64,000 nt of DNA, taken from positions 992,001 through 1,056,000 of the forward strand of contig NZ_CP156660.1 of assembly GCF_039851975.1 (NCBI RefSeq), read 5' to 3'. The stretch comes from Desulfoscipio sp. XC116. Lineage in GTDB: Bacteria > Bacillota > Desulfotomaculia > Desulfotomaculales > Desulfallaceae. The number at the start of each line of letters is the position of its first letter. Position 1 is the stretch's first letter. Made by a program: the position numbers and the translations under genes. This document shows positions 7,304 through 40,452 of this stretch, piece by piece. The notes under the pieces were generated by a model. The model searched no databases, had not been told where the DNA came from, and saw only the letters and a program-made list of their open reading frames with translations.

Positions 7304-8189
7304 CCTGTTCACCACCGAGGAAAGCCGCGCCGAGCAGCAGCGCGAAAAGGTGATGGACATCCCCCTGTCGGAAATCAGTGATTTCCCCGACCACCCTTTT
7401 AAGGTGAAAGCGGATGAGGCTATGTTGGAAATGGCGGACAGCGTAAAGCAATACGGCGTTTTAGTCCCCGGCCTTGTGCGGCCCAAAGCGGACGGCGGCT
7501 ATGAAATGGTGGCCGGACACCGGCGTAAAAAGGCAAGCGAGCTTGCGGGATTGGAAACTATGCCCTGTATCATCCGGGAACTGGACGACGATCAGGCCAC
7601 CATTATTATGGTTGACAGCAATCTGCAAAGGGAAAGCATCCTGCCGAGTGAGAAAGCTTTTGCCTACAAGATGAAGCTGGATGCCATGAAACGGCAAGCA
7701 GGCAGACCAAGCAAAGAAAATGTGTCCCAAGTTGGGACGCAAAAACGTTCAGACCAAATATTAGCTGAACAAAGCGGAGAAAGCAGAAATCAAATCCAGC
7801 GATATATCCGCTTAACTGAGCTTAGCCCTTCCATTCTTGAAATGGTGGACGAAAGACAAATTGCCTTTAACCCCGCTGTTGAGCTTTCCTATTTGGCCGA
7901 AAAGGAACAGCAGGAGCTTTACGAAACCATACAGTCGGAAGATTGCACCCCGTCCTTGGCCCAGGCGCAACGGATGAAAAAGCTTAGTCAGGACGGCAGG
8001 CTGAATATGGATGTCATTTTTTCCATTCTCACCGAGGAAAAGCCGAATCAAAAGGAAAAATTCAATATCCAACGGGAACGCATCGACCGTTTTTTTCCCA
8101 GCAGCTTTACGGAAAAGCAAAAAGAGGATTTAATCGTTCAGCTCCTGGAAAGCTGGTATAAAAAACGGCAGCGGGAACAGGAACGCTGA
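7254..8189 (+). CDS. parB: ParB-family partition protein
   Basis: 311 residues from the TTG at 7254, placed by AAGGAGG (7238-7244) nine bases upstream; the longer frame upstream is only the shadow of parA. IPLSEISDFPDHPF and YEMVAGHRRKKASELAG are the ParB nuclease-like (CTPase) boxes, and SRNQIQRYIRLTELS is the DNA-binding helix-turn-helix. It would load at a parS-like site and work with ParA. Its C-terminus is the basic tail KKRQREQER, one of several similar tails in this element. No parS was recognised. Confidence 0.88.
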   Translation: MAKNDVRSSIKLASVDDLFTTEESRAEQQREKVMDIPLSEISDFPDHPFKVKADEAMLEMADSVKQYGVLVPGLVRPKADGGYEMVAGHRRKKASELAGLETMPCIIRELDDDQATIIMVDSNLQRESILPSEKAFAYKMKLDAMKRQAGRPSKENVSQVGTQKRSDQILAEQSGESRNQIQRYIRLTELSPSILEMVDERQIAFNPAVELSYLAEKEQQELYETIQSEDCTPSLAQAQRMKKLSQDGRLNMDVIFSILTEEKPNQKEKFNIQRERIDRFFPSSFTEKQKEDLIVQLLESWYKKRQREQER

Positions 8190-8252
8190 ACCGTGGCAGC
8201 TTCGCTCTTAAGGAGGGCGATTTTTTTATGCCCTTTGGAAGGAGGTGCTTGG

Positions 8253-8420
8253 ATGTACTTTACGGAAGGGCGGCTGCGCGAATGTGAACGCATAATGCGG
8301 GAAAAACCGGGACATGACCGCAAACCCGTTAAAGCGGCGGAAAGACGGGATTGCCAGCATTGTCCGCACTTTGACAGGCATCAAGGAAAATGTGGCCAAA
8401 AGTGCGTAATAAAAAAGTGA
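8253..8420 (+). CDS. small four-cysteine protein
   Basis: 55 residues. The ATG follows AAGGAGG at a good distance. Four clustered cysteines (CQHC and CGQKC) suggest a small zinc ribbon. Function unknown. It sits between parB and the pilus genes on the same strand. Confidence 0.5.
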   Translation: MYFTEGRLRECERIMREKPGHDRKPVKAAERRDCQHCPHFDRHQGKCGQKCVIKK

Positions 8421-8541
8421 TTTTACACGAAGGGGCTAGCTCCTCTACTTACGAAAAACGCAGACCGCGCCGTCTTTCGTCATTCCCCTCCTCACCACTG
8501 CCCCAAAAGCCACCGGCCGAAAAAAGAATGAAAAGCAGACC

Positions 8542-8579
8542 GGACGGCCTTCCTTCTTTTTCGGTAGGTAAGGCCGTCC
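8542..8579. repeat. inverted repeat ahead of the pilus operon
   Basis: GGACGGCCTT (8542-8551) pairs perfectly with AAGGCCGTCC (8570-8579). No long T-run follows, so it may be an attenuator or binding site in the leader of the pilus operon. The rest of 8421-8615 shows nothing. Confidence 0.45.
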
Positions 8580-8615
8580 TCTAAACTAAAATCTTCGGAA
8601 GGAGGAAGTATCACT

Positions 8616-9323
8616 TTGGAACTAATAAAAAACCGAATCTTTTTAAGCGTCCTTTGCCTTGTCCTGGCGGCGGGCGTTTCTTTTTTGCTCCTGCCGCGCT
8701 TCTACGAGGACAAAGGCGCAACGGTCACGGTGCTGCGGGCGGCGCAGGATATCCCGGCTGGAACGGAGCTTGCGGAGCACCACCTTGCAAGCGTGGAGGT
8801 AGGCGGCTACGGGCTGTCGGAGGGCGTATTGAACGACAAAGCGCAGCTTGTCGGTAAGGTGGCGCAAACCGCTATTGCCAAGGGAGACTATTTCTTCCCT
8901 CAAAAGCTCGGCAGCTTTCTTGCCAACGAGCTGCTTGACCGCCTTGTGAAGAACAACCAGCGCCTTGTTACCATCAACGTTCCCAGCATCGCGGCGGGGC
9001 TTTCCTCCCACTTGCGAGCCGGAGATGCTGTTACGGTGGCCATATTCTTAGAAAAGGCGTCCGATGGCCGGGATACCTCCCCGCAGGTCATTATTTATCC
9101 TGAATTAAAAGGGCTGGAAACATACAGCGTCGAGAACGCCCGGACCCAGGACACCGCCGAAATGCGGGAGCAGCAAAAGAGCAGCCAATCGGCAAACAGC
9201 GATCCGGTTCCCAAGGCCGTGACCCTCATTGTCACCGAAGCCCAGGCGGAAAAACTCATTCAGGCCGAGTACACGGGGAAATTGCATTTAATCTTTGAGA
9301 AGCGGGGTGCGGATCATGAGTAA
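8616..9323 (+). CDS. cpaB: CpaB/RcpC-like pilus assembly protein (SAF domain)
   Basis: 235 residues from a TTG after AAGGAGG. A single N-terminal membrane anchor (about 8-28) precedes a SAF domain: VTVLRAAQDIPAGTELAEHHL and the paired RLVTINVP segment typical of CpaB. The family helps assemble the Flp pilus at the cell envelope. It is the first gene of an ordered Tad cluster and overlaps tadZ by 8 bases (ATGAGTAA). Confidence 0.8.
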   Translation: MELIKNRIFLSVLCLVLAAGVSFLLLPRFYEDKGATVTVLRAAQDIPAGTELAEHHLASVEVGGYGLSEGVLNDKAQLVGKVAQTAIAKGDYFFPQKLGSFLANELLDRLVKNNQRLVTINVPSIAAGLSSHLRAGDAVTVAIFLEKASDGRDTSPQVIIYPELKGLETYSVENARTQDTAEMREQQKSSQSANSDPVPKAVTLIVTEAQAEKLIQAEYTGKLHLIFEKRGADHE

Positions 9324-10050
9324 AATCATTGCCGTATGGGGCGGCAAGCACAGCGGCAAAACCACCTTTGCGGTCAACCTGGCCTGCGCCCTTTCAAAGC
9401 GGGATGTGCTCGTCGGTCTCATTTCCTCGAATCTCACCTATGGAGAGCTGCAAACCTTTTTCGGCCAGGAGGTTCTCCCGCAAAAGGGACTGTTTGAAGC
9501 ACTCAACGCGGAGACCCCCAACATCGGTGAAAATTTCACGGCTTATACGGAGAGCAAAAACCTGTTTTTCCTGTCCGCACCTACCAAATACAGTGGACTG
9601 CTTTGCGATACCGTGGCCATTGAGGACGTGGAGCGGATGATCAACGCCTCCGCCCTTGCGTTTGACCTTCTCATTGTGGATGGAGCCGCGGAGGTAAACA
9701 ATCCGGTATCCGGCGTGGGATTGTGGCTGTCTGACACCATTTTCACCCTGCACAGGCCATCTATCGCGGCTAAGATGTGGTACACGGGTGTTTCAGATTT
9801 TGCAAGGGAGCTGCATATCGAAGAGAAGCAAATCCACATCCTGCGCGCTCCCAATGGGGAATTTGACGACCAGGCTTACCGGAGCATCATGGAGACGCCT
9901 TTTGTCTATGAAGTGCCCCACATCAAACGCGCCGGTGAGCTGGAAAACGCCGGAACGCCCCTGTATTTCTTCCGTGATCGCGCTTGCAGATGCTACGGCA
10001 AGGCGCTGGAGCAAATCGCCGGAAAAATCTGCGGGGGTGGGAAGCCATGA
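9316..10050 (+). CDS. tadZ: TadZ/CpaE-like ATPase
   Basis: 244 residues; ATG at 9316 overlapping the cpaB stop. The N-terminal loop GGKHSGKTTFAVNLA is a Walker A of the MinD/ParA superfamily, and LLIVDGAAEVNNP fits the B region. In Tad systems this protein marks the site of pilus assembly. Its stop overlaps the ATPase start (ATGA). It is more divergent than a standard MinD; the call rests on motif plus position. Confidence 0.7.
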   Translation: MSKIIAVWGGKHSGKTTFAVNLACALSKRDVLVGLISSNLTYGELQTFFGQEVLPQKGLFEALNAETPNIGENFTAYTESKNLFFLSAPTKYSGLLCDTVAIEDVERMINASALAFDLLIVDGAAEVNNPVSGVGLWLSDTIFTLHRPSIAAKMWYTGVSDFARELHIEEKQIHILRAPNGEFDDQAYRSIMETPFVYEVPHIKRAGELENAGTPLYFFRDRACRCYGKALEQIAGKICGGGKP

Positions 10051-29243: not shown

Positions 29244-29280
29244 TTGCTTTAATTGTATCTAATTACATCTAATTGTATTA
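29242..29280. repeat. four near-copies of a 10-bp AT-rich unit
   Basis: Units AATTGTATCT, AATTACATCT and AATTGTATTA start at 29251, 29261 and 29271, and a shorter AATTGCTTT starts at 29242. The 10-bp step puts them on one DNA face, as in iteron or cooperative-operator sites. They mark the junction between the ICE backbone and the cargo block. The remaining bases to 29390 hold no gene. Confidence 0.55.
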
Positions 29281-29390
29281 TGAGAAAAGAAATAAAATCG
29301 TGACATCTCATAATATTTTGTGGAGATTTGCCGAATTCTGTGATATGCTAAAAAAGCAATTTATATCCTTAATTATATGAGGTGTACAAT

Positions 29391-29591
29391 ATGGGAGTCA
29401 GTTATAAGCGGTTGTGGATGCTCATAATTGAAAAGGAATTAAAAAAATCACAAGTGCGTCAAATGGCTAACGTAAGTGCGAGCACCTTTTCAAAAATGAG
29501 TAAGAACGAGTATGTGGCTCTGGATGTATTAGTTCGTTTATGTGTTGCTCTTGATTGTGAATTAAGCGATATCGTTGAGATTGTTCGGTAA
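29391..29591 (+). CDS. XRE/Cro-type regulator of the cargo block
   Basis: 66 residues; ATG at 29391 follows TGAGGTG. It is a bare helix-turn-helix (KSQVRQMANVSASTFSKM, then LDVLVRLCVALDCELSDIV) of the small XRE regulators that often control defence or restriction genes. It lies 47 bases before the DUF4338-type gene on the same strand and may repress the block, perhaps through the 10-bp repeats upstream (inference). Confidence 0.75.
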   Translation: MGVSYKRLWMLIIEKELKKSQVRQMANVSASTFSKMSKNEYVALDVLVRLCVALDCELSDIVEIVR

Positions 29592-29638
29592 TCAATTTTT
29601 AGCATGTATTTTATTCTTTAGATCCTGGAGGTCGCTTT

Positions 29639-31627
29639 ATGGCAATTGAGGCAAACGAAATATCAGAAATATTTTCCCCTGCACTAAATGAGGAATACGT
29701 GGGTAGATTTCAGTGCTTGGTTAAAAGATTCGGGAAGGTCTTCCCTAATTATAGGGATTTATTAATCAAGCAGGAAATAGCAGCTACCGAAGACGGTATC
29801 CCTAACGACGATTTCGAGGGGTTAAGATACATAACAGCGCTTAGGGTTCTGTATGATTTAACTCAGCAGGGCTGGGGCCTTGAGGTAAAAAACAATACAG
29901 AGCTTCACTTGACAATGCATACTGAAAATTCTAACGACAAGGAATATATCCGGCACCGCTTAAGCACTGAAAGAAAGGCACAGTTTAAGGTCGACTCCAC
30001 GCTACGCTTTATTGCTTACATGGAACGTGTAAGGGTATATCACGGCCGTGAGATATCTATTAAGAATCTGATCGGCAGCAGGGATGCGTTAATCCAAGCT
30101 ATCCAAAATGAACAGCGCGTTGTTGACCCTTACCTCCAGTTGGTTACTCATTCAATTGATAAGCAAACAGGCTATCGGGATACAGACATATGGAGATATT
30201 TCAGGTATACCTGGTCTATTCCGTATAAATCCATGCCGGGGCGAAATTTGTTCTACCTTGTCAGGGATCGTGCACAGGAATTTCATCCTGTCATTGGTAT
30301 CTTCGCATTAGGAAATTCCGTTTTAAATCTGACGGTGCGGGATAATGAGATCGGCTGGACGGTGGACTCCGTTCGAGCTGCCTTGGAGCGCAAGGCCTCT
30401 AAGGAAATCAGTACACAGGAGGTAAGTCAGACTAACGGCAAAACAGTAACCTCTAAGCGGACGCGATATTTAGAAACTGAAGAGGGGCATATAGCCAGAA
30501 TTACAGCTTATTCTCGGCAAACCATGGATGTACTACTTAGGAATCTGAAAAATGCAATCAACGATATATATGTGCGGGATCTGGGCTACCATAGGGGCAC
30601 CAAGTATCCCTCAGAAAAAACAATCAATGAGTTAAAAAGCCTATATGAGGAATTACGTGAGCAAGCAATAGACAATAAAAAAACAGCCAGGGTTACCGAT
30701 TGGGAGGGTGAAACGAAAGAGATTCTTTTCAAAAAAAAGCGAGCCTTTGAGCTTGCAAAGCTGCTTGACGCTATGCGCTGGTTCAATCATTTCAAGTGCG
30801 ACAGTCATACAAAATGGCTTGAGGCTATGGTAAAAAATGAGCAAGGCCGCAAAGCCATTAATGTAGCTCTTGTTGCAAACCGGAAAACGAAGATCGGCTC
30901 CAATATGATGGAGATCATCGTATGTGGAGCAATACCTCCCTACAATGAATTGCTTGGCGGCAAGCTGGTAAGTATTTTAGCCTGCAGCCCTATTGTAATC
31001 CGTGATTATACAGATAAATATAAACATCAGGTTAGTGAAATTGCATCCCGCATGAAGGGCAAGAGAGTAATCCGTGACAGTCGGCTTGCTTTTTTAGGCA
31101 CAACAAGCCTTTATTCCTTGGGAAGCAGTCAATATAACCGAATCAAGGTTCCCATAACCGAAGACTTTACTCTCCAATTTAAGAAGATGGGAATTACCGA
31201 GGGCTACGGCACTGTATATTTTTCCAAGGAAACCACCGATGCAATGATGCACCTTTTAGAGCTTCAGGATGGCGGGCGCAGAATAAACCATGTTTTCGGC
31301 GAGGGGACAAGCCCCCGCTTTCGCTTAATCAGTAGAGGGCTAAGCATAATAGGCATTAAGGCTGACGCTTTTTTGAAGCACTATTCACCAAGAATCGTAT
31401 ATTCGATGGAGTTGGCATCGAATACAAATGAATTTCTCCTCGGCTATACAGATGAACTGGATTATCCCTTTGATATCACCAGTGACGAGGATGTCAGGGC
31501 AAAAACGCAGGACATGATCGAATATTGGTATGAGCGGTGGATGAGTAAAAGGCTTCAAACCGTTGATATTATTCAGCGGCTCCAGAGCTTTACTCCCGAG
31601 AGCATCATACTGAGCTATACGAGGTGA
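29639..31627 (+). CDS. DUF4338 (Druantia DruA-like) protein
   Basis: 662 residues; ATG after GGAGGT. The block GRNLFYLVRDRA...PVIGIFALGNSVL...RDNEIGWT (about 201-241) matches the DUF4338 pattern of Druantia DruA: a motif for a ligand-like pocket ending in an R-D-x-x-I-G-W turn. A second conserved-looking part (about 410-480) has VALVANRKTKIGSNMMEI and NELLGGKLVSILACSP. The DruA mechanism is unknown. It is longer than typical DruA proteins and is followed after 4 bases by an ATPase gene instead of the usual Druantia partners. Family call from pattern only; the residue spacing should be tested by profile search. Confidence 0.6.
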   Translation: MAIEANEISEIFSPALNEEYVGRFQCLVKRFGKVFPNYRDLLIKQEIAATEDGIPNDDFEGLRYITALRVLYDLTQQGWGLEVKNNTELHLTMHTENSNDKEYIRHRLSTERKAQFKVDSTLRFIAYMERVRVYHGREISIKNLIGSRDALIQAIQNEQRVVDPYLQLVTHSIDKQTGYRDTDIWRYFRYTWSIPYKSMPGRNLFYLVRDRAQEFHPVIGIFALGNSVLNLTVRDNEIGWTVDSVRAALERKASKEISTQEVSQTNGKTVTSKRTRYLETEEGHIARITAYSRQTMDVLLRNLKNAINDIYVRDLGYHRGTKYPSEKTINELKSLYEELREQAIDNKKTARVTDWEGETKEILFKKKRAFELAKLLDAMRWFNHFKCDSHTKWLEAMVKNEQGRKAINVALVANRKTKIGSNMMEIIVCGAIPPYNELLGGKLVSILACSPIVIRDYTDKYKHQVSEIASRMKGKRVIRDSRLAFLGTTSLYSLGSSQYNRIKVPITEDFTLQFKKMGITEGYGTVYFSKETTDAMMHLLELQDGGRRINHVFGEGTSPRFRLISRGLSIIGIKADAFLKHYSPRIVYSMELASNTNEFLLGYTDELDYPFDITSDEDVRAKTQDMIEYWYERWMSKRLQTVDIIQRLQSFTPESIILSYTR

Positions 31628-31631
31628 GGTT

Positions 31632-33194
31632 ATGAACAGCTTACAATTCATTAAAAAGCTCTATAATGGGAAGAATTGCTATTCTGACTCTCTTACAGAG
31701 GATGAAATAGCCCTGCTCCATATTCCCTCCGGCGTTGAGCGAATCGTTGAGGAAATGGTGGATGCCAATCGCATTGTGTTCCTCACTGGAAACCCAGGGG
31801 ACGGCAAAACGTACATAATTCGAGCCCTGGAAACAAAGCTGCCACAGAGCGTTTATATCGAAAAGGATATGAACAGTGTCACAGATGAGAAAATGAACGA
31901 CGTTATAAGCAAAATCGTTGATTGCTATCACAATAACAAAAGCTGCATAATTGCAGCCAATGAGTTTCCGTTCTTTAAGCTTATAAGAGCTTCAAGAAAG
32001 CTCGCTCCTGAGCTACATAATGAGCTTATAAATGTGAAAAAAAACGTTATTGTATATGGCCATTCTACCTTCCAACTGCGCCGGATTTGCATTATTGACT
32101 TAAACGAGAGAAATCTGCTTGATAAGGATCGCAGTGTGCTCCCTCCCATTGTAAGCAAGTTTGTGGAACTCTTAAAAAACAGTGCTGGAGTTAACCCTGT
32201 ACTTGATTATAATGTAGCGGCACTGCAAAACGAGCTCGTAATTGAACAGCTATTACGGCTATTTAATCTGGTTGCAATGAGCGGAGAGCATTTTGCCATT
32301 CGAGATATCCTTGGTACACTTGCCTATGCCATGACTAGCTGCACGGTGGATGACGAGGATGTTAACGGCCATTATTATGATGCGTTGTTTTCTGGTGAGA
32401 ACGAGCTAATGTCCTTCATTGCTCAGTTTGATCCAGTTCTTCTTTCTAAGCCCAGCCTAGACGAGCAGCTATGGAACGGGGAAAAAACAGACGGATGGCT
32501 TATGGGTGCCCCTACCAAATGGCCGAAGTAGCTTACTGATGAAAGCGTCGAGGAGGCAACCAAGCTATTTAAATCCATAAAGCGTAAATTCTATTTTGAA
32601 AACATATATGCCAAAGAGCTAAGCGAGCTTCAGCCTGTAGATTATACTGAATGTGAGCGTATTTTTGTAAGCTTGGGCAATTCAAGCAGTAAAAGAGGCA
32701 TCCTCAGTATGCTAATTAACTCAATGAATCGCTTATTTCTGTCAACGGACGATGAAAAAGAGCGGTTAAGAATTTGGACCTCGCATAGCTATGATCTTAG
32801 CCGCGAAACTGGCGCTGCCGTTTCAACAAAATATATAGATGCCTCGGATCTCGATTTGGTCTATCCTGAGCCGATCTCCTGGCTGAAGGATATGGAATTT
32901 ACACCAGATAGTCTTATTATGAAGCTAAAAAGGGACAATACATCCCCAAAGCTCGAAATAGACGTTACGCTCTTGCGTGGTCTTATAAGCATAAAAAGCG
33001 GATATCCTGCCAGTCTGCTTTCGGGGCAATATGAGCAGTCTATCTCCCAATTCACACAGGCCCTAGCCTCAACCTCCGCTGCCAGAGACTATGGCGATGG
33101 AGAGCTATTGATAGCCAACCGTCGAGAAGGCTCAAGGAAAAAGATATTTATTGAGGATAATAAATATCGCTTTCATGACGGAGGTGAATTTTAA
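31632..33194 (+). pseudogene. DptF-like P-loop ATPase with an in-frame TAG
   Basis: The frame runs for 520 codons but is cut by a single TAG (32529-32531) at codon 300. Before it lies a P-loop (FLTGNPGDGKT, about 49-59) and a stretch (IIAANEFPFFKLI) like the ATPase DptF of phosphorothioate-dependent restriction. After it the same frame continues without further stops to a C-terminal domain. The neighbour triple P-loop ATPase, helical protein, FtsK-type ATPase has the DptF-G-H order. A CAG to TAG change would explain the break. Either the gene is inactive, or readthrough or a 5' product suffices, or the base is an error. A TTG at 32673 could restart the C-terminal part. Confidence 0.6.
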
Positions 33195-34678
33195 TGGCGC
33201 GTGAAAAGGACTATTTGGACAGATATGGCGAGGATATATGTAATGCACTCGGCTTTAATCCAACCTCAAATTCAACAAAGCCTCTTTCAATTGCAAACGC
33301 CTTGTTCCGTTCCTGCTTGGGAACAGTCTGCGATATAAAGGATATCCATGAGTGGATTACAAGTGAACGCAGAAGTAATGCACGTATTCTGCCCTCTACT
33401 GAAATTCGCGATAAATATAAGGACATTCTTGCCCATGGTACAAATGAGCCGGTTGATGACATCAAGGAGGCACGGTTTGTCCTTGAACAGATATTCAATC
33501 CAGATTCGACGGTTTATCCTGGTTATCAAAACTCCGTTTTGAACATTCCGTCACGCTGGCTGGTGCGCTCATCACTGCCAGCCGAAGCAAGGATTGGCGA
33601 TTTTATCTTTGGAATTCTCAGCTATCCTATTGAAGGTAAGGCTTCTCCTGCAATCGAGCTTATCCGTGACGCTCTTAAGGATGACGATGATGATATATCA
33701 CGGCTTATAAAGCCAATTTTGACAAGCTCTTACAAGGAGCGCATATCGGATATTGAAGTCAGTCCTAAAAGCATTAGCTTTAATAGCAGCAAGCAGGCCA
33801 TAAGAAAGGGCTTTGATAATTTGGCCGTAAACCTGCTTTATACAGGTCAGTCCCGCAATTCGCTTCTGGTGCTTAAGCGAATGTCAAACCTCGCCGTTTT
33901 TGCTTCGTATTATTATTTAGTTGACGTGAATAACGCAGAATACAACGGCGAGAGGATTCCGCTTTTACTTGATTCCTTCTCTGATTTAGATGCCATTGAG
34001 CGGGCAAGCGAGCTGTGCTACATTGCTTGCAAAAAATCTGTTGAAGCGTATATCGTTAACCTGCTTGAGGATATCATACGAAATGAAAGGCTTATAGCGG
34101 ACACCACAAGTGCTGAAGCCTGCAAACGCTTTATATCATCGGACATAGCGTTAAATGCTGCGAAGGAGCAGAAAAATGCCCGCGAAATCCTATTGCAATA
34201 CTTTGAAACCTTTTATACCGGAGGAGATAAACCCTTACGAGCCTTATCACGGGCGCTTCAGTTTGCTATCTATGCCTTTACATATCCAAACAATACCCCC
34301 TCCGATTTCTGCCGTGTGCTAGGTACGAGAGCCGGACTGGTGGGACCCGGAGGCGGAGCTAAGTTTAAGCGACTGCTTATTAATCGCTTTTTGCTTGAAA
34401 CCATTGTTTTAAGCACTGTAACCCTTGAAGGAATGCCCGATGGCATTGAGCTACGTGAGCTTGGAGAGCTTTTGAGATCGCAATACTATATACTCATTGG
34501 TACCGATACCGATAAGGATTATTCCTTATTGGATCAAGCTAAAATTGCACAGGACGCACCGGAGGATCTGCGTGGTGAATTAGCAAGTAATGCCCGAAGC
34601 ATTGCGGATATGCTTATTACCATGGGTTTGGCAAAAAGATATGCCGATGGTGTTACTATAATTGGATGGGGGTTGTAA
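33194..34678 (+). CDS. DptG-position protein, unassigned
   Basis: 494 residues; ATG overlaps the preceding stop (TAATG), so it is translationally coupled. No P-loop or catalytic motif was found. It is mostly helical, and its C-terminus (ASNARSIADMLITMGLAKRYADGVTII) resembles a winged helix. By its place between the ATPase and FtsK-like genes it would be the DptG-like partner, but sequence alone does not show this. Confidence 0.5.
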   Translation: MAREKDYLDRYGEDICNALGFNPTSNSTKPLSIANALFRSCLGTVCDIKDIHEWITSERRSNARILPSTEIRDKYKDILAHGTNEPVDDIKEARFVLEQIFNPDSTVYPGYQNSVLNIPSRWLVRSSLPAEARIGDFIFGILSYPIEGKASPAIELIRDALKDDDDDISRLIKPILTSSYKERISDIEVSPKSISFNSSKQAIRKGFDNLAVNLLYTGQSRNSLLVLKRMSNLAVFASYYYLVDVNNAEYNGERIPLLLDSFSDLDAIERASELCYIACKKSVEAYIVNLLEDIIRNERLIADTTSAEACKRFISSDIALNAAKEQKNAREILLQYFETFYTGGDKPLRALSRALQFAIYAFTYPNNTPSDFCRVLGTRAGLVGPGGGAKFKRLLINRFLLETIVLSTVTLEGMPDGIELRELGELLRSQYYILIGTDTDKDYSLLDQAKIAQDAPEDLRGELASNARSIADMLITMGLAKRYADGVTIIGWGL

Positions 34679-34679
34679 A

Positions 34680-37600
34680 ATGCAAACGCTTCTGACCAAA
34701 GTGATTATTCAAGCAGTTATAGCCAAGGAGAATGCAGATGGCTTTGGCGTATCCATAATAAATCTGCCAGAGATTGACTATAGTCTGCTGGTACAAGGTA
34801 TTAAGCAGCGCAAGCGCTTGGAGATATATTTTCTCGGCTTTCAAATGGAACAGCTTACGTATTTGCAAAGCAACCTTCCTCAAATAAATGATGTCAGCTA
34901 TTTCTTTACCGTCGAAGAAGCTGAGGACTCCAGAAACAGTGGTGCCGAGGATGTATTTCGAGTTCATATTGTAAAAAATCAAGAGCTTGAAAAAATATCC
35001 TCTCTACGTTGGTATGACACCATAGGTATGGATCAGGTATATAGAAAAAGCTGTGAATATGTGAGGAAAAGCCTCTCACCCTCAAATGAAACCATTTCAA
35101 ACCTGCTCAAGGCCTTGGGACGTCAGGATATAAGAGGCATACTGAATTTCGAGCGGGTGCTTTGCTACCTTGAAGCATTGCTTAATACCCCTTCAGAGCA
35201 GTTGCCCCAGACTATTTCAGATAATCTATACATGCTGGGCTTGCTTGCACATAAGGGCTTTGGAATAGGAGCATCGACAATAGATGACTTTCGCTCTAAA
35301 ATTAAACGCAATCATGAGTTGACTCGGAGAATCAGCAGCCTTGAGCAGAAGGAGCGCCAAAATATCACAAGCTATGCCTCTGTTAACCCTGAAAATGAGC
35401 TAACAAGGTTTATCCTGAACTATTATCGAACAAAGGATATCGAGCTATTAAAGCAGATGGACGTTGACGAGGTTGAAAAATGCCTGAAAAGTGCTGCAAA
35501 ATCGACAGGCACTACTCCGAAGCAAAGTACTAAGGTATCAACAGTTAACGCCACAACCGCCGCGGCACAATTGGTATTTGATAATGATTTCGAGCAAATA
35601 GGCGAGGTTATCGATAAGGTACAGCAGGCTATTGATGAGCGCTCGGACACTGACAAGGCCGATCAGGTTGAAATATCCGTAGGCGGCTCAAAGCTGAAGA
35701 TAAATGTTGAGCCTGCGACCGAAGCTATTGCTCAGACTGTTTCAACAGAGGAGTATTGGGGTGGCTTAGTCTATGCAGAGGTAAAAAACCCAAAGGACGC
35801 TCTTGACGTCTTGGATAAATACGAGCTTATGCCCTTTGATGCCAGCTATATTGACAAACGCATCAGAGAGTATTTAATCAGAGCAAAGCGATACATTACC
35901 GATTCTGAAGCCGCTGAGGAAATTTTCTCATCCTTCGAGGCCTTTGCCTTAAGCAGGCAGAAAATCCTGCCCTATAGTAAGCGTCTACAGGATATCCCTA
36001 TGCTTCAGGTGATTAACAAATACAAGGACTTCGCAGAATACCTTTCCTCCTACGAGCGTCTGCTGGCTTCGATTAAGAATCATTTTGCAGTTCTTTGGAG
36101 CGTGGACTCTGTAGGAGCAAGGGATATTGTCAACACCATTATCTCTTTGGATTTTTTATATGTGCTTGGCACAGAAAACAGTCATGTGATCCCTACTCCA
36201 CTCAATCCTCTTTACCTGTGGAAATATATCAAGCTGGCACAGGAGATGCTGGAGTCGGGAAGTCTTGAGGAGGGCCAGGACTGCTATCTTTCAGAGGATG
36301 ATAAAGCCTTCATTGTTTGTAAGGCTGAGGATATTCCAGATCCCCTGACGCTTGTGCTTGTGCCGAACAGCATCGCTGAAAGCTCTGAGTGCCTGCCGAT
36401 TGCAGGTAGAATTGGATGCTTACCGGTGTATTCCACCAAGCCCCAAATCAATGAGGGTGAAACCGGCATGGAGGCAGTGCAGCAGGCCATAATCCGGTAT
36501 ATGTGTCTGTATCCACATTCAAGCATGATGCTTCGCATCACCCTTATAAACCCTCCGACCGTAGAGGCTGTTGTTGGTATGCTCAAAAGGCTTGATAAGG
36601 ATAAGGAATTTGCGGCCTTTGGCTCAGTCGGTATTGATCTTTCTGTATATCGAACCAAGGAGGCTTCCTCTGATTGGATGGAAATTCAGGATAAGTCCCT
36701 GAATGACGGAATGCTCGGCAAGATTAAGGGCAAAAGGTCCGGACGCTTTAATCTTTCCATTGTAAATAAAAAGCTTTCATACACAGATATCCTTGGCAAG
36801 CTTAATCGTGAGCAGCATCTGCTGGTTGTTTTTGATCCCAATGAAAAGCAAATTGATTTGGCACGTAACAGCCGGCATATTCATATTCATCCCCTATGCG
36901 TACCTAAGGTCTATGAATACAACCGCATTCAGGGCAGTGTGAGAATCCGCCCTGCTAACGAGGGAGGGATATTTGCCGATTATGCAGGAATCCTGGAAAA
37001 GCTTCGTGAGCAGCCCTCATCTTTCGGGCATCGGAGCGTATTCGTGAATTCTCCCTTACAGGAGGAAACCTACAAGCAGTTACTTGGCCTTGCAGACTGG
37101 CTGATAATTCTTGACCAGAATCTAAAAAGCTGGGATATCTCTCTGCGTTCAGCAAGCGAAAAGCTGTTTTATAAGGGCTACGATTATCGTTCCATAGGGA
37201 TATATTCAAAAAACAGCGGGAAGTTCGTGCTCGGATATAATCAGTTAATTGCGTCCTTAGGCAACTATATCCCAAACAAGGATGGAGTAAAAAACGTTAT
37301 AAATACAATAAGAGATATTAATGATGATGGTCTGCTGAGTATCGCCTCCCATTCCACCAATAGTATTTTTGACCAAAATCATGGCAAGGGCAGCCTTGGG
37401 CTGGCGCTTGCCGCAATACATTACAAGCAACGGCATCCAGCATCCCTTTTGGTTGGCCTTGACACACAGCTTGCCCGTGAATGGTTATCAGATCGTGAGG
37501 ACGGTAAGCTTCCTGATCTTATTGGGCTTCGGTTTGATTCACAGAACACTGCGCCACAGATTGATATTATAGAGGTTAAAACGCATGCCGACTACTCCAT

Positions 37601-39284
37601 TTCACAGGGTGCTATCTCTGGGCATGCTGTAGAGCAAACCCTAATTCTTGAAGGACTATTACGTGAAATGTTTGGACACACCGAGAAAATCACCACAGTA
37701 TCACGAAAGGAAATTCTCCGGGAGCAGGTCTTTGAATGTCTGTTTCATTCAGAGCTGTTCTCTGATGAAAAATACGAGCATACGCAATGGCTTAATGGGC
37801 TGTTTGCTGGCGAATACGCCTTCGGTCTTACAAAGACCATATGTCATGTCGATTTCGAAAGCGCTATCACCTCTGAGGAGGTATATCATGGCGAGGGTGA
37901 TGTAGTGCATGAAAGCTTCAGGCTGCTTAGGCTTGGTAGCTCAGATATACAGGCTTTGCTGACTGATGCGAAGACTACTCAGCTCGGAAGCACTCCTACT
38001 CCAGTATCCTCATATATACAGGAGACACCGGCAGAGCAGGCTACTCCTACTGCATGGGAAGAGGCTTCTGAACAGCCAGAAGCACACACTTCTGTTGAGG
38101 TACCCGCACAGAATACTATTGACGTAGTAGCGTCGGAGCCTAATGCACAAGCCGATGATGGACAGACTCCCTCAGCATCTGTCAATGAGCCTGTGATTAG
38201 CCCTGAGATCAAGGAGAAATGTATTCGTCTGAATATTATCCTCAAGGGGTATGGAATTAAGGCTAACCCTGTAGATGAAAGCCTGGTACAGCAGGCTGCA
38301 CGCTTTACGCGCTTCAAAATTGAGCTCAAGCCGGGCGAAACCATTAAGAAGCTGATTGATAAGAGCCAAGATATTGCGCGTGAGCTTGAGGCCTTTGGTG
38401 AAATCTTCATTGATAATATTAAGGGTACCCGATATGTTGGCATGGATGTTCCCTTCGCTGATATGGGAAAGCCCTTGATGCTGCCCGAGAATCTGCATAG
38501 GCTTGATGATGGCACAGGCTCACTTAATGTCTTAGCTGGACAGACACCAGATGGCTCGTATCAACTGGTTGATTTAGCAAGGGCTCCGCATATGCTCATT
38601 GCCGGAACTACTGGTTCAGGTAAAACAGTGTTTTTATATTCAGTAATCGTCAGCCTATTACACAAGCTTGGTCCGGAGGATTTGGAGCTTCTTATTGTAG
38701 ATCCAAAGCAAACAGACTTCCATTTCTTCGAGGGTATTCCGCATCTTCGTGGTCAAACAGTTCTGACCGATGCCAATGAAGCATTGAATGCGTTAGAGCT
38801 TATTAACAGCGAGGATAAGGAGGCACGCACTCAGCTAATACGTTCAGTTAATAGCCGCGATATTGATTCCTATAACAGCAAAAATCCAGAAAACCGTATG
38901 AAGCGATTGGTTGTAATAATAGATGAGTATGCAGATTTAGTGCAGGCCGCGGAGCTACAGGGTAAGGATGTACGAAGAAGCTTTGAGACCAACCTCTGCA
39001 TGCTTGCTCAGAGAGTACGTAATTTAGGTATCCATTTAGTCATTGCCACACAGCAGCCCAGAGCAACAATTGTAACCTCATCCTTAAAGGCCGTGCTACC
39101 ATATCGTGTATCCTTCAGGCTACCCTCCCATGTCGATTCTCAGACGATATTGGATCGCGCTGGCGCCGAGGATTTGCTGGGCAAGGGCGATATGCTGCTG
39201 ATGACCGATAGCGACATTATTAGGATGCAGGGTTTTTTCATATCAGAGGAACAACTATTGGGCTTCATCGAGTCCAAAAAATAA
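34680..39284 (+). CDS. DptH-like FtsK/HerA ATPase with nuclease-like region
   Basis: 1534 residues from the ATG at 34680 (upstream codons lie in the preceding gene's end). The C-terminus is an FtsK/HerA-type motor: Walker A AGTTGSGKT (about 1309-1317), DPKQTDFHFF, Walker B LVVIIDEYADL (about 1410-1420), then IATQQPRATIVT. A central region has DIIEVKTHAD (about 963), the D-E-K part of a PD-(D/E)XK nuclease, in a stretch like the DptH proteins. A long flexible acidic stretch (about 1110-1180) joins it to the motor. It would translocate and cut DNA. No dndABCDE modification genes are seen nearby. Coupled to the gene before. Confidence 0.7.
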   Translation: MQTLLTKVIIQAVIAKENADGFGVSIINLPEIDYSLLVQGIKQRKRLEIYFLGFQMEQLTYLQSNLPQINDVSYFFTVEEAEDSRNSGAEDVFRVHIVKNQELEKISSLRWYDTIGMDQVYRKSCEYVRKSLSPSNETISNLLKALGRQDIRGILNFERVLCYLEALLNTPSEQLPQTISDNLYMLGLLAHKGFGIGASTIDDFRSKIKRNHELTRRISSLEQKERQNITSYASVNPENELTRFILNYYRTKDIELLKQMDVDEVEKCLKSAAKSTGTTPKQSTKVSTVNATTAAAQLVFDNDFEQIGEVIDKVQQAIDERSDTDKADQVEISVGGSKLKINVEPATEAIAQTVSTEEYWGGLVYAEVKNPKDALDVLDKYELMPFDASYIDKRIREYLIRAKRYITDSEAAEEIFSSFEAFALSRQKILPYSKRLQDIPMLQVINKYKDFAEYLSSYERLLASIKNHFAVLWSVDSVGARDIVNTIISLDFLYVLGTENSHVIPTPLNPLYLWKYIKLAQEMLESGSLEEGQDCYLSEDDKAFIVCKAEDIPDPLTLVLVPNSIAESSECLPIAGRIGCLPVYSTKPQINEGETGMEAVQQAIIRYMCLYPHSSMMLRITLINPPTVEAVVGMLKRLDKDKEFAAFGSVGIDLSVYRTKEASSDWMEIQDKSLNDGMLGKIKGKRSGRFNLSIVNKKLSYTDILGKLNREQHLLVVFDPNEKQIDLARNSRHIHIHPLCVPKVYEYNRIQGSVRIRPANEGGIFADYAGILEKLREQPSSFGHRSVFVNSPLQEETYKQLLGLADWLIILDQNLKSWDISLRSASEKLFYKGYDYRSIGIYSKNSGKFVLGYNQLIASLGNYIPNKDGVKNVINTIRDINDDGLLSIASHSTNSIFDQNHGKGSLGLALAAIHYKQRHPASLLVGLDTQLAREWLSDREDGKLPDLIGLRFDSQNTAPQIDIIEVKTHADYSISQGAISGHAVEQTLILEGLLREMFGHTEKITTVSRKEILREQVFECLFHSELFSDEKYEHTQWLNGLFAGEYAFGLTKTICHVDFESAITSEEVYHGEGDVVHESFRLLRLGSSDIQALLTDAKTTQLGSTPTPVSSYIQETPAEQATPTAWEEASEQPEAHTSVEVPAQNTIDVVASEPNAQADDGQTPSASVNEPVISPEIKEKCIRLNIILKGYGIKANPVDESLVQQAARFTRFKIELKPGETIKKLIDKSQDIARELEAFGEIFIDNIKGTRYVGMDVPFADMGKPLMLPENLHRLDDGTGSLNVLAGQTPDGSYQLVDLARAPHMLIAGTTGSGKTVFLYSVIVSLLHKLGPEDLELLIVDPKQTDFHFFEGIPHLRGQTVLTDANEALNALELINSEDKEARTQLIRSVNSRDIDSYNSKNPENRMKRLVVIIDEYADLVQAAELQGKDVRRSFETNLCMLAQRVRNLGIHLVIATQQPRATIVTSSLKAVLPYRVSFRLPSHVDSQTILDRAGAEDLLGKGDMLLMTDSDIIRMQGFFISEEQLLGFIESKK

Positions 39285-39298
39285 GGAGCAAAAAACGT

Positions 39299-39979
39299 GT
39301 GAATTCATTGGAGAAGCCCACAGAGGGCATATTTATAAAAGAACGGAAAAATCGCTTTATATGCGAGGTTATGGTGGAGGATGAGGCCATAGAATGCTAT
39401 GTCCCATCCTCCTGCCGTCTTGATAATTTTATCGATTTACATGGAAAGCGGGTGCTTCTGCTTCCAATAGAGGCACAAAACGCAAGAACAAGCTATTCCT
39501 TGTTTGCTGTTCCATATAAGCGCAATCATATCCTGCTGAACATTGGAAAAGTCAACAGTGTGATTGAACGGGATATTAAAAAAAGTTGTTTTTCCACTCT
39601 CGGCAAACGGTCTGAGGTTTATAGGGAATATAAAATCGGCTCTTATAAAAGCGATTTGTTTATCGAAAACAGCAAGACACTACTGGAGGTCAAGAGTATT
39701 CTTTCTTTAGGAAAAGTGGCAATGTTCCCAACCGTTTTTTCTCAGAGAACCCTTGACCAGTTTAGGGAGATATCTTCATTGCTGGACAAGGGCTATAATG
39801 CAGCTCTTGTCATTGCTTCCTTGAGTCCATATTTAGAGCAAATCCAGATCGACCACGCTTCGCCGTTTTACGAAGCATTGAAACCCTGCATTGAAAATGG
39901 TATGCAGTTGCTTGCTGTATCCCTACATATTTATCAAGGTGAAGCAAGAGTCAAGAGAAAAATCAAAATTGAGTTATAG
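39299..39979 (+). CDS. SfsA-like nuclease-fold protein
   Basis: 226 residues from a GTG after AAGGAG. It shows the SfsA layout: an OB-like N-terminus (GIFIKERKNRFICEVMVEDE, CYVPSSCRLDNF), then DLFIENSKTLLEVKS with D and E-x-K of a PD-(D/E)XK nuclease fold (about 121-134), MFPTVFSQRTLDQF and a C-terminal lobe. SfsA proteins bind DNA and are normally housekeeping genes; here it is the last gene of a defence-like block, 14 bases after the FtsK-like gene, so it may supply the nuclease or a binding subunit. Confidence 0.7.
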   Translation: MNSLEKPTEGIFIKERKNRFICEVMVEDEAIECYVPSSCRLDNFIDLHGKRVLLLPIEAQNARTSYSLFAVPYKRNHILLNIGKVNSVIERDIKKSCFSTLGKRSEVYREYKIGSYKSDLFIENSKTLLEVKSILSLGKVAMFPTVFSQRTLDQFREISSLLDKGYNAALVIASLSPYLEQIQIDHASPFYEALKPCIENGMQLLAVSLHIYQGEARVKRKIKIEL

Positions 39980-40252
39980 CTTCAAATGCAAAGGCCACCT
40001 GTGTAATTCCTGTTTATTTGCTCTCACTTTTGAGAAATGCCGTTATCATTAACACGAGCTTCATGGTGAGCAAGGGCAAAAGCAAACGAATTCTTGTTGT
40101 ATTCAGGGAATTGGCCATTGTCCGGTCAAAAAACCATTTAGATAGATACATATGTAAATTTTTTTAATGTTTTTAGATGTTGTATATTTGTTTTAAAATA
40201 ATCATCATTAATGATGAAGATGAACACTCGAAAAGCAATATAAAATTGCTAT
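39980..40252. other. intergenic stretch at the right end of the cargo block
   Basis: About 270 bases of AT-rich DNA without a coding frame I can support. It has a short palindrome ATCATTAATGAT near 40204 and a T/A-rich stretch around 40150. It marks the return from cargo to the mobilization genes. Confidence 0.4.
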
Positions 40253-40286
40253 GAGCAGGAGCGATAACCTCCTGCTCTTTCTTTTT
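40253..40286 (+). terminator. terminator after the cargo block
   Basis: GAGCAGGAG (40253-40261) pairs perfectly with CTCCTGCTC (40269-40277), 7-base loop, followed by TTTCTTTTT. Closes the cargo operon and shields the mobilization genes. Confidence 0.85.
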
Positions 40287-40323
40287 CGGCTGATTGTATT
40301 TGAGAACAAGCGTAACCCACACC

Positions 40324-40403
40324 CAACACAAGACTGCTGTCTTGTGTTGTAGCAAGCACTGAATTTGGATAGCCAAATTCGCTTATTAGGGGCTCGCCCC
40401 TAA
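40324..40403 (+). other. putative origin of transfer (oriT)
   Basis: Three perfect hairpins stand in a row just upstream of the mobilization genes: CAACACAAGAC/GTCTTGTGTTG (40324-40349, 4-base loop), GAATTTGG/CCAAATTC (40361-40380) and TTAGGGGC/GCCCCTAA (40386-40403, 2-base loop). Such stacked inverted repeats next to mobC and the relaxase are typical of MOBP oriT regions. The nick site was not identified. Confidence 0.6.
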
Positions 40404-40452
40404 TACCCCTTTCATGCTGCACTCCTATTAATCAAGAAAAGAGGTGCTATGA

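Follow-up and report, generated by a model that had tools for sequence, protein, structure and literature searches.

A DruA-linked operon resembling DndFGH/SspFGH, with an SfsA-like nuclease gene, as candidate restriction cargo of a mobile element

How might a restriction engine of the kind known from phosphorothioate (PT) systems tell self from non-self when no PT genes accompany it, and why does a protein shared with Druantia stand at its side? This question is raised by six genes in a 64,000-nucleotide stretch of Desulfoscipio sp. XC116 (contig NZ_CP156660.1, positions 992,001 to 1,056,000 of the forward strand; hereafter the window). They encode a helix-turn-helix (HTH) protein, a long form of DruA (DUF4338), three proteins resembling F, G and H of the Dnd and Ssp systems (FGH), and an SfsA-like nuclease (Table 1). 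Judged by sequence comparison, the locus would be, with a rough probability of 0.45, a standalone restriction operon of DndFGH/SspFGH type that an element resembling an integrative and conjugative element (ICE-like) carries as defence cargo, with DruA in the self/non-self place of the PT module. The conserved five-gene set, from DruA to SfsA, probably destroys foreign DNA. An initial annotation had called the locus a candidate new defence system. The gene set does recur and PT genes are absent, but standalone DndFGH and a fusion of DUF4338/GNAT to DndF are already published (PMC10853773; articles are cited here from excerpts), and "new system" is too strong: the set differs from what is known by a separate or fused DruA, by the added SfsA and by the absent PT module. 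The FGH engine is thus already known, and what is new is the fifth gene, SfsA, together with DruA both as a constant partner without PT genes and as a protein common to this locus and Druantia.

The open reading frame (ORF) calls agree with the initial annotation on six tightly spaced genes at 29391-39979, all on the plus strand, and profile matches were found for each proposed identity (DUF4338, DptF/G/H-like and SfsA), those of F and G being weaker. DruA and F are 4 bp apart, F and G have one base in common, H and SfsA are 14 bp apart, and G and H overlap slightly or are 1 bp apart, depending on the H start codon. The HTH gene has a 95% identical counterpart at the equivalent position in one related locus (L005, of Lutispora saccharofermentans; L and G numbers denote loci and genomes), and a tblastn comparison with two others (L004 and L006) gave no match.

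Table 1 The operon and its cargo slot in window coordinates, with profile matches (E-values)
Feature	Position	Strand	Details
HTH	29391..29591	+	Cro/C1-type, 66 aa, possible operon regulator; PF13443 HTH_26 6.9e-16
DruA, long form	29639..31627	+	662 aa; PF14236 1.5e-37, over cut-off; PDLC00001 5e-132
F, SspF/DndF-like P-loop ATPase	31632..33194	+	SspF 2.2e-10; DptF TIGR03238 2.3e-6
G, SspG/DndG-like	33194..34678	+	494 aa; weak SspG match 1.3e-4
H, SspH/DndH-like	34662 or 34680..39284	+	1534 aa from ATG 34680; SspH 5e-64
Regions of H			methyltransferase-like, PD-(D/E)xK nuclease, FtsK-alpha, FtsK/HerA translocase
SfsA-like PD-(D/E)xK nuclease	39299..39979	+	226 aa; PF03749 5.2e-15, over cut-off
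Cargo slot of ICE-like element	29244..40448	.	between Toprim gene and NikA/relaxase genes

The genes are repeated neighbours elsewhere, a point on which the initial annotation had made its proposal depend. DruA adjoins F-G-H in 18 loci read in Bacillota, in haloarchaeal and Bacteroidota plasmids and in IMG/VR contigs (the window, L004, L005, L006, L007, L008/L009, L010, L023, L024, L025, L026, L027, L031, L034, L043, L044, L048 and L058), and it is the sole extra gene common to all of them; in six of the 18 it is fused to F (L007, L026, L043, L044, L048 and L058). These loci are not independent, since one plasmid carries both L027 and L034, and L023-L025 are nearly alike; furthermore, L026, L027, L034 and L058 are either broken or have other ORFs in between, and L048 ends inside G. 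Left out of the counts were copies of the window (L001, L002, L059), a DruA remnant (L003, L022) and repeats of L043 and L044 (L051, L055, L056); a short, broken DruA (G031) and the plasmid match H14 were not included either, and the match in L032 ends at the record end. Genome contigs scanned once with H yielded three Bacillota loci (L004-L006), all with DruA-F-G-H-SfsA in this order at 41-90% identity, and two weak H matches (L052, L053) had none of the gene set around them.

DruA occurs in two sizes, with 662 aa in the long form of the window and 366-410 aa in the short forms of phylum loci. Among 398 genomes of the window's phylum, 15 match the DruA profile PDLC00001; four of these have a long DruA, which adjoins FGH in all four, while FGH was found at none of the 11 short-DruA loci of the phylum (10 genomes; 8-19 kb read at each). 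Fourteen plasmid records match DruA, 11 of them with the long form: FGH is present in six (Hymenobacter canadensis and five from haloarchaea) and absent from four alphaproteobacterial ones, and one is cut by the record end. Eight DruA loci came from IMG/VR, with FGH genes at three of six long and neither of two short ones, and one more genome (G438) came from 113 genomes searched within the class. From the other direction, strong matches to the G profile come with DruA in 5/5 cases in the sampled genomes and in both plasmid records that have G. In a tree of 27 DruA proteins, 15 of the 16 FGH-linked rows cluster (support 81/86), with that of Hymenobacter outside.

Within the engine, H is identified as a PD-(D/E)xK nuclease joined to an FtsK/HerA pump by its invariant residues, its FtsK profile match and profile-profile alignment (hhalign). 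Residues D946, E965, K967 and Q986 are invariant in 8/8 and 10/10 aligned sequences, bacterial and archaeal, and so is the Walker A motif (1309-1316) among the aligned sequences; this agrees with the ATPase with an E-x-K nuclease stretch described in the initial annotation, whose 1534 residues are counted from ATG 34680. The SspH profile covers just the FtsK part, which also matches PF01580 (1.7e-33), and hhalign against the H of PT-type loci gave 99.2% (E 2.4e-19) over 917 columns. The H model has a methyltransferase-like fold at ~585-850 (Z up to 12.6), in a low-confidence region of a model whose overall predicted local distance difference test (pLDDT) score is 65.7; the same order, methyltransferase before nuclease, is described for DndH (PMC10853773). 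For G, hhalign against the G proteins of PT-type loci gave 97.7% (E 2.5e-12) over only 112 C-terminal columns. A sequence search of solved structures matched H to FtsK-type chains and returned only ribosomal matches for G (E>0.2). F carries the Walker A motif GNPGDGKT in its translation and scores 26.8 bits against DptF TIGR03238, under the cut-off of 50. The DptFGH-like order that had been proposed is seen in the window as a tandem of F, G and H on one strand, with SspF, SspG and SspH profile matches.

The marking half of such systems is missing. PF01507, the PAPS-reductase family to which we take DndC, like SspD, to belong, has no match in the whole genome, while 14/14 control genomes are positive; this is in line with the lack of dndABCDE modification genes noted at first. 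A PT-dependent Dnd/Ssp system was rejected on the absence of a PAPS reductase from the genome. The G profile finds 12 of the 398 genomes, namely the four with a long DruA at E <1e-150 and eight others at 2e-4 to 5e-9, a split that is partly by construction because DruA-linked loci were the source of the profile. A PF01507 gene is nearby at 0/4 DruA-FGH loci versus 7/8 other FGH loci (Fisher p 0.010, for a post hoc contrast picked after the data were seen). Of the eight others, six have it inside the locus, G135 has it at a distance of ~6 kb from H, and in G073, whose FGH contig is 5.6 kb long, it is found on a different contig. An SspD-type neighbour profile, which may miss canonical DndC, found nothing in the other DruA-FGH loci. 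Typing of the eight other FGH loci with PADLOC covered three. FGH has SspA, SspB and SspC as neighbours in L036, and F bears a kinase in both L035 and L041, with SspD next to it in L041. The kinase-bearing F genes of L035 and L041 each adjoin a PAPS-reductase gene, so that an F extension alone seems compatible with PT genes. These PT-linked loci (mad6/PglW-like kinases) resemble the operon in having an FGH engine with an extra module at F and differ in the module, kinases with a PAPS-reductase gene by F there and DruA here.

Compared with SspABCD-SspFGH (PMC8092258), the operon is alike in that F and H match the SspF and SspH profiles and G weakly that of SspG; it differs in having no PT-marking genes nearby and in the addition of DruA and SfsA. 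SspFGH deprived of PT marks damages the DNA of its own host (PMC8092258), and a standalone FGH would therefore plausibly need another control. Standalone DndFGH loci are closer still, with the same F-G-H order, a nuclease and an FtsK/HerA pump in H, and no PT genes linked to them (PMC10853773); the differences are that DruA is here a separate 662-aa gene and that SfsA follows H. In the mechanism that we favour, F would sense a nucleotide or the invader, G would bind DNA, H would pump along it and cut, and SfsA would contribute a second nuclease, H and SfsA together cutting unprotected DNA. With less assurance, DruA may replace the PT module in telling self from non-self, whether by acylating self DNA as a mark or by acting as a gate on the FGH engine. 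DruA would then be a testable candidate for the component that standalone DndFGH engines lack, the Druantia and Dnd/Ssp classes of defence would be linked through one common protein, and the SfsA nuclease family would gain a plausible role in defence.

The SfsA nuclease family is named after sugar fermentation. In the window's phylum, Bacillota and IMG/VR, SfsA follows H at each of the eight loci that could be read; the sequence past H was readable in 15 loci, the contigs of L007 and L058 ending less than 0.5 kb after H. The gene is inverted in L010, and in L008 (G039) it is followed by a second long DruA gene (7326-9377). Residues D119, E130, K132 and Q154 are invariant in 9/9 sequences (eight operon copies and L054), both PF03749 and PF17746 are matched over their cut-offs, and a sequence search of solved structures returned the SfsA entries 4da2 and 4dap, along with a chance HPr match at 0.008. 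The operon protein has the family and the nuclease residues in common with housekeeping SfsA, but scores 68 bits against the equivalog TIGR00230, below the cut-off of 126.45, is operon-linked, and is the only SfsA match of its genome. No SfsA match was found in the plasmids searched, and a scan of viral contigs gave one relative (L054) besides repeats of L043 and L044. This close relative, on a prophage-like contig without FGH (L054, 7799-10684), follows a DNA methylase gene that PADLOC matches to PglX, HmaB and a DUF1156 methyltransferase.

The AlphaFold2 model of DruA (pLDDT 84.6) has a fold like that of GNAT acyltransferases, and DUF4338 has been named a GNAT in print, in agreement with this result (PMC10853773). 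In VIA-align, 46 of the 50 listed rows are acyl- or acetyltransferases or GNAT toxins, the remainder being three malonyl-CoA decarboxylases and one pre-ribosome chain; the best row is NAA60, with a Z of 8.5, just over 8 (root-mean-square deviation 3.9, 160 aligned). The stretch GAxxPYxxxLGGKL is kept across 12 long and nine short DruA proteins, and nine of the 35 residues conserved among them fall in G430-L443, at the end of strand 423-431, a putative acyl-CoA loop judged by its position. Solved structures searched by sequence and phage records gave no match for DruA, and a PHROGs search gave nothing telling. In a viral fold library, the model matches uncharacterised proteins of giant viruses, with E 1.3e-9 for Faunusvirus and 3.2e-6 for Yasminevirus.

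Mom-family GNATs acylate DNA adenine, and their jumbo-phage members are typically fused to nucleases (PMC7824862), which suggests a bolder reading of DruA as an acylator of self DNA. DruA would be a GNAT-fold DNA base acyltransferase marking self DNA and the operon an acylation-based restriction-modification system, in which FGH and SfsA would read an absent acyl mark as SspFGH reads absent phosphorothioates; we hold this to be possible rather than probable. Mom of phage Mu is like DruA in its GNAT superfamily, and the Mom family is joined to restriction nucleases (PMC7824862); it differs in that no sequence similarity to DruA was detected with the one Mom sequence compared, and the activity of DruA is only predicted. 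Were the reading true, marking by DruA could serve the DruE engines of Druantia as well.

Several observations weigh against the explanation favoured here. First, we know of no DNA mark where a long DruA adjoins DruE. Second, a long DruA occurs without FGH in four plasmids and three IMG/VR contigs, and it is DruE-adjacent in several loci. Third, the contrast in PT genes comprises 12 genomes only, the DruA-FGH contig of G212 is just 10 kb long, PF01507 proteins are encoded on other contigs in three of the four DruA-FGH genomes, and DruA-less kin could rank among the "others" owing to the DruA-linked source loci of the G profile. Fourth, SfsA is found at 0/7 haloarchaeal and Hymenobacter (Bacteroidota) loci. 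Fifth, Foldseek found nothing in the PDB for the DruA model at E<=0.001, and hhalign of DruA against Mom gave 0.1%, a weak test with a single Mom sequence. At last, the DUF4338/GNAT domain fused to DndF has been read as a possible protein-modifying co-effector (PMC10853773).

This last point leads to an alternative that is unlikely in our estimate, namely a DruA that acts as suicide or backup effector: FGH would sense the invader, the GNAT would acetylate a host protein or tRNA so that growth stops, and H and SfsA would cut DNA. Rakesh et al. proposed it for DndF-fused GNAT domains (PMC10853773), the tRNA-acetylating toxins AtaT, TacT3 and KacT are among the structural neighbours of DruA, and DruA occupies the position of the kinase extensions in other F genes. 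However, the fused domains are described as variable and occasional (PMC10853773), whereas DruA is present with every strong G match; the kinase-bearing F genes adjoin PT genes, whereas the DruA-FGH loci do not; and DruE, too, is partnered by DruA. Also doubtful is a non-catalytic DruA, a sensor or adaptor that would recognise a feature of invader DNA and recruit DruE (in Druantia I) or FGH. Long DruA genes beside DruE in two alphaproteobacterial plasmids, or next to both DruE and FGH in four of the five plasmid records from haloarchaea, would suit such an adaptor, as would the DruA-F fusions, but the conserved stretch near the central strand, kept in long and short DruA alike, points to ligand binding and perhaps catalysis.

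The link to Druantia concerns DruA alone in the window. Druantia type I comprises DruA and DruB-DruE. The operon is like it in having a member of the DruA family and unlike it in that the DruB-DruE profiles matched none of the six operon ORFs scanned; Druantia type I was rejected on the lack of DruB-E next to DruA. Nor did the DruE profile match anywhere in the window or in the DruA-FGH loci of its phylum or IMG/VR. A DruE-type helicase stands beside long DruA and FGH in the haloarchaeal records L023, L024, L025 and L031, and beside long DruA without FGH in two of four alphaproteobacterial plasmids (L028, L029) and in L046; PADLOC DruE1 was checked in L023 and L029. With a short DruA, it was seen in L013 (one of 11 from the phylum), in L049 and in P. 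putida and Nitrosococcus plasmids, and the operon DruA is longer than both the short-DruA proteins and the ~410-aa DruA that accompanies a DruE-type helicase in two plasmids. In L023, a weak DruD match lies upstream and the helicase beside DruA-F-G-H. The long DruA genes without FGH (L028, L029, L030, L033, L046, L047) possibly belong to another DruA-based system, and MzaB-like HATPase genes lie upstream of them in L029, L046 and L047, the three tested.

In this strain an in-frame TAG (32529-32531) splits F into one ORF at 31632-32531 and another from 32673, whereas F is uninterrupted in L004, L005, L006 and L010. Read-through by pyrrolysine was considered and rejected: the genome has two weak PylS matches only (<=27.6 bits against a cut-off of 178), similar ones occur in most control genomes too, and with no PylS match near the cut-off the TAG is taken as a stop. 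Against L005, whose copy is 83-90% identical to the window operon genes, the ratio of nonsynonymous to synonymous substitution rates (dN/dS) lies in the range 0.07-0.14 across the five operon genes, with 0.074 for F upstream of the stop and 0.082 downstream. These low values, which extend to the downstream half, suggest that the operon genes have been under selection and that the break looks recent. Restriction is probably off in this strain because of the stop, DruA, G, H and SfsA being still open. That the locus is decaying mobile-element cargo, functionless here with F broken, is very improbable, for although the stop and a degenerate DruA remnant with internal stops outside the window (G000:C1:2852014-2852262) would fit, the dN/dS values of the other genes and of F past the stop make any decay look recent, and intact five-gene copies exist in L004, L005, L006 and L010.

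In the literature, Rakesh, Aravind and Krishnan (2024) treat standalone DndFGH and mention DUF4338/GNAT fused to DndF once, and SfsA and DruA have 0 occurrences in the main text (PMC10853773). A HerA/FtsK-GNAT-TGT system related to BREX has been described (PMC12839542), and another article covers Druantia helicases, the whole words FtsK and DruA being absent from it (PMC12458937). No title or abstract opening among the matches listed, which were mostly without subscription journals and supplements, describes this gene set.

The mobile setting is consistent with defence cargo. As annotated at first, the operon is an AT-rich block (GC ~40-46% against ~50-60% in the element on either side) that adjoins a primase gene: it occupies a slot between a DUF3991/Toprim (primase-like) gene on one side and NikA and a MobA/VirD2 relaxase on the other. 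We call the element ICE-like for its relaxase, NikA, coupling protein and TraG-type ATPase genes. Relaxase matches at E<=1e-80 occur in 8 of the 398 genomes (11 matches), and the slot was compared between the match of the window's own genome (G000) and five places in five other genomes, six further matches being left out. The equivalent slots measure ~10.0, 2.4, 2.3, 2.3 and 2.3 kb, and DruA, G, H and SfsA are absent from all five. Two of them were typed, G189 with an Eco29kI restriction-modification set together with ABC-3C and AAA ATPase genes, and G086 with AbiEii. By location, the slot contents of related elements support a defence role for the operon. The same ICE slot with the Eco29kI set or AbiEii (L065, 3615-11714; L066, 3360-5061) appears to be a site for defence cargo.

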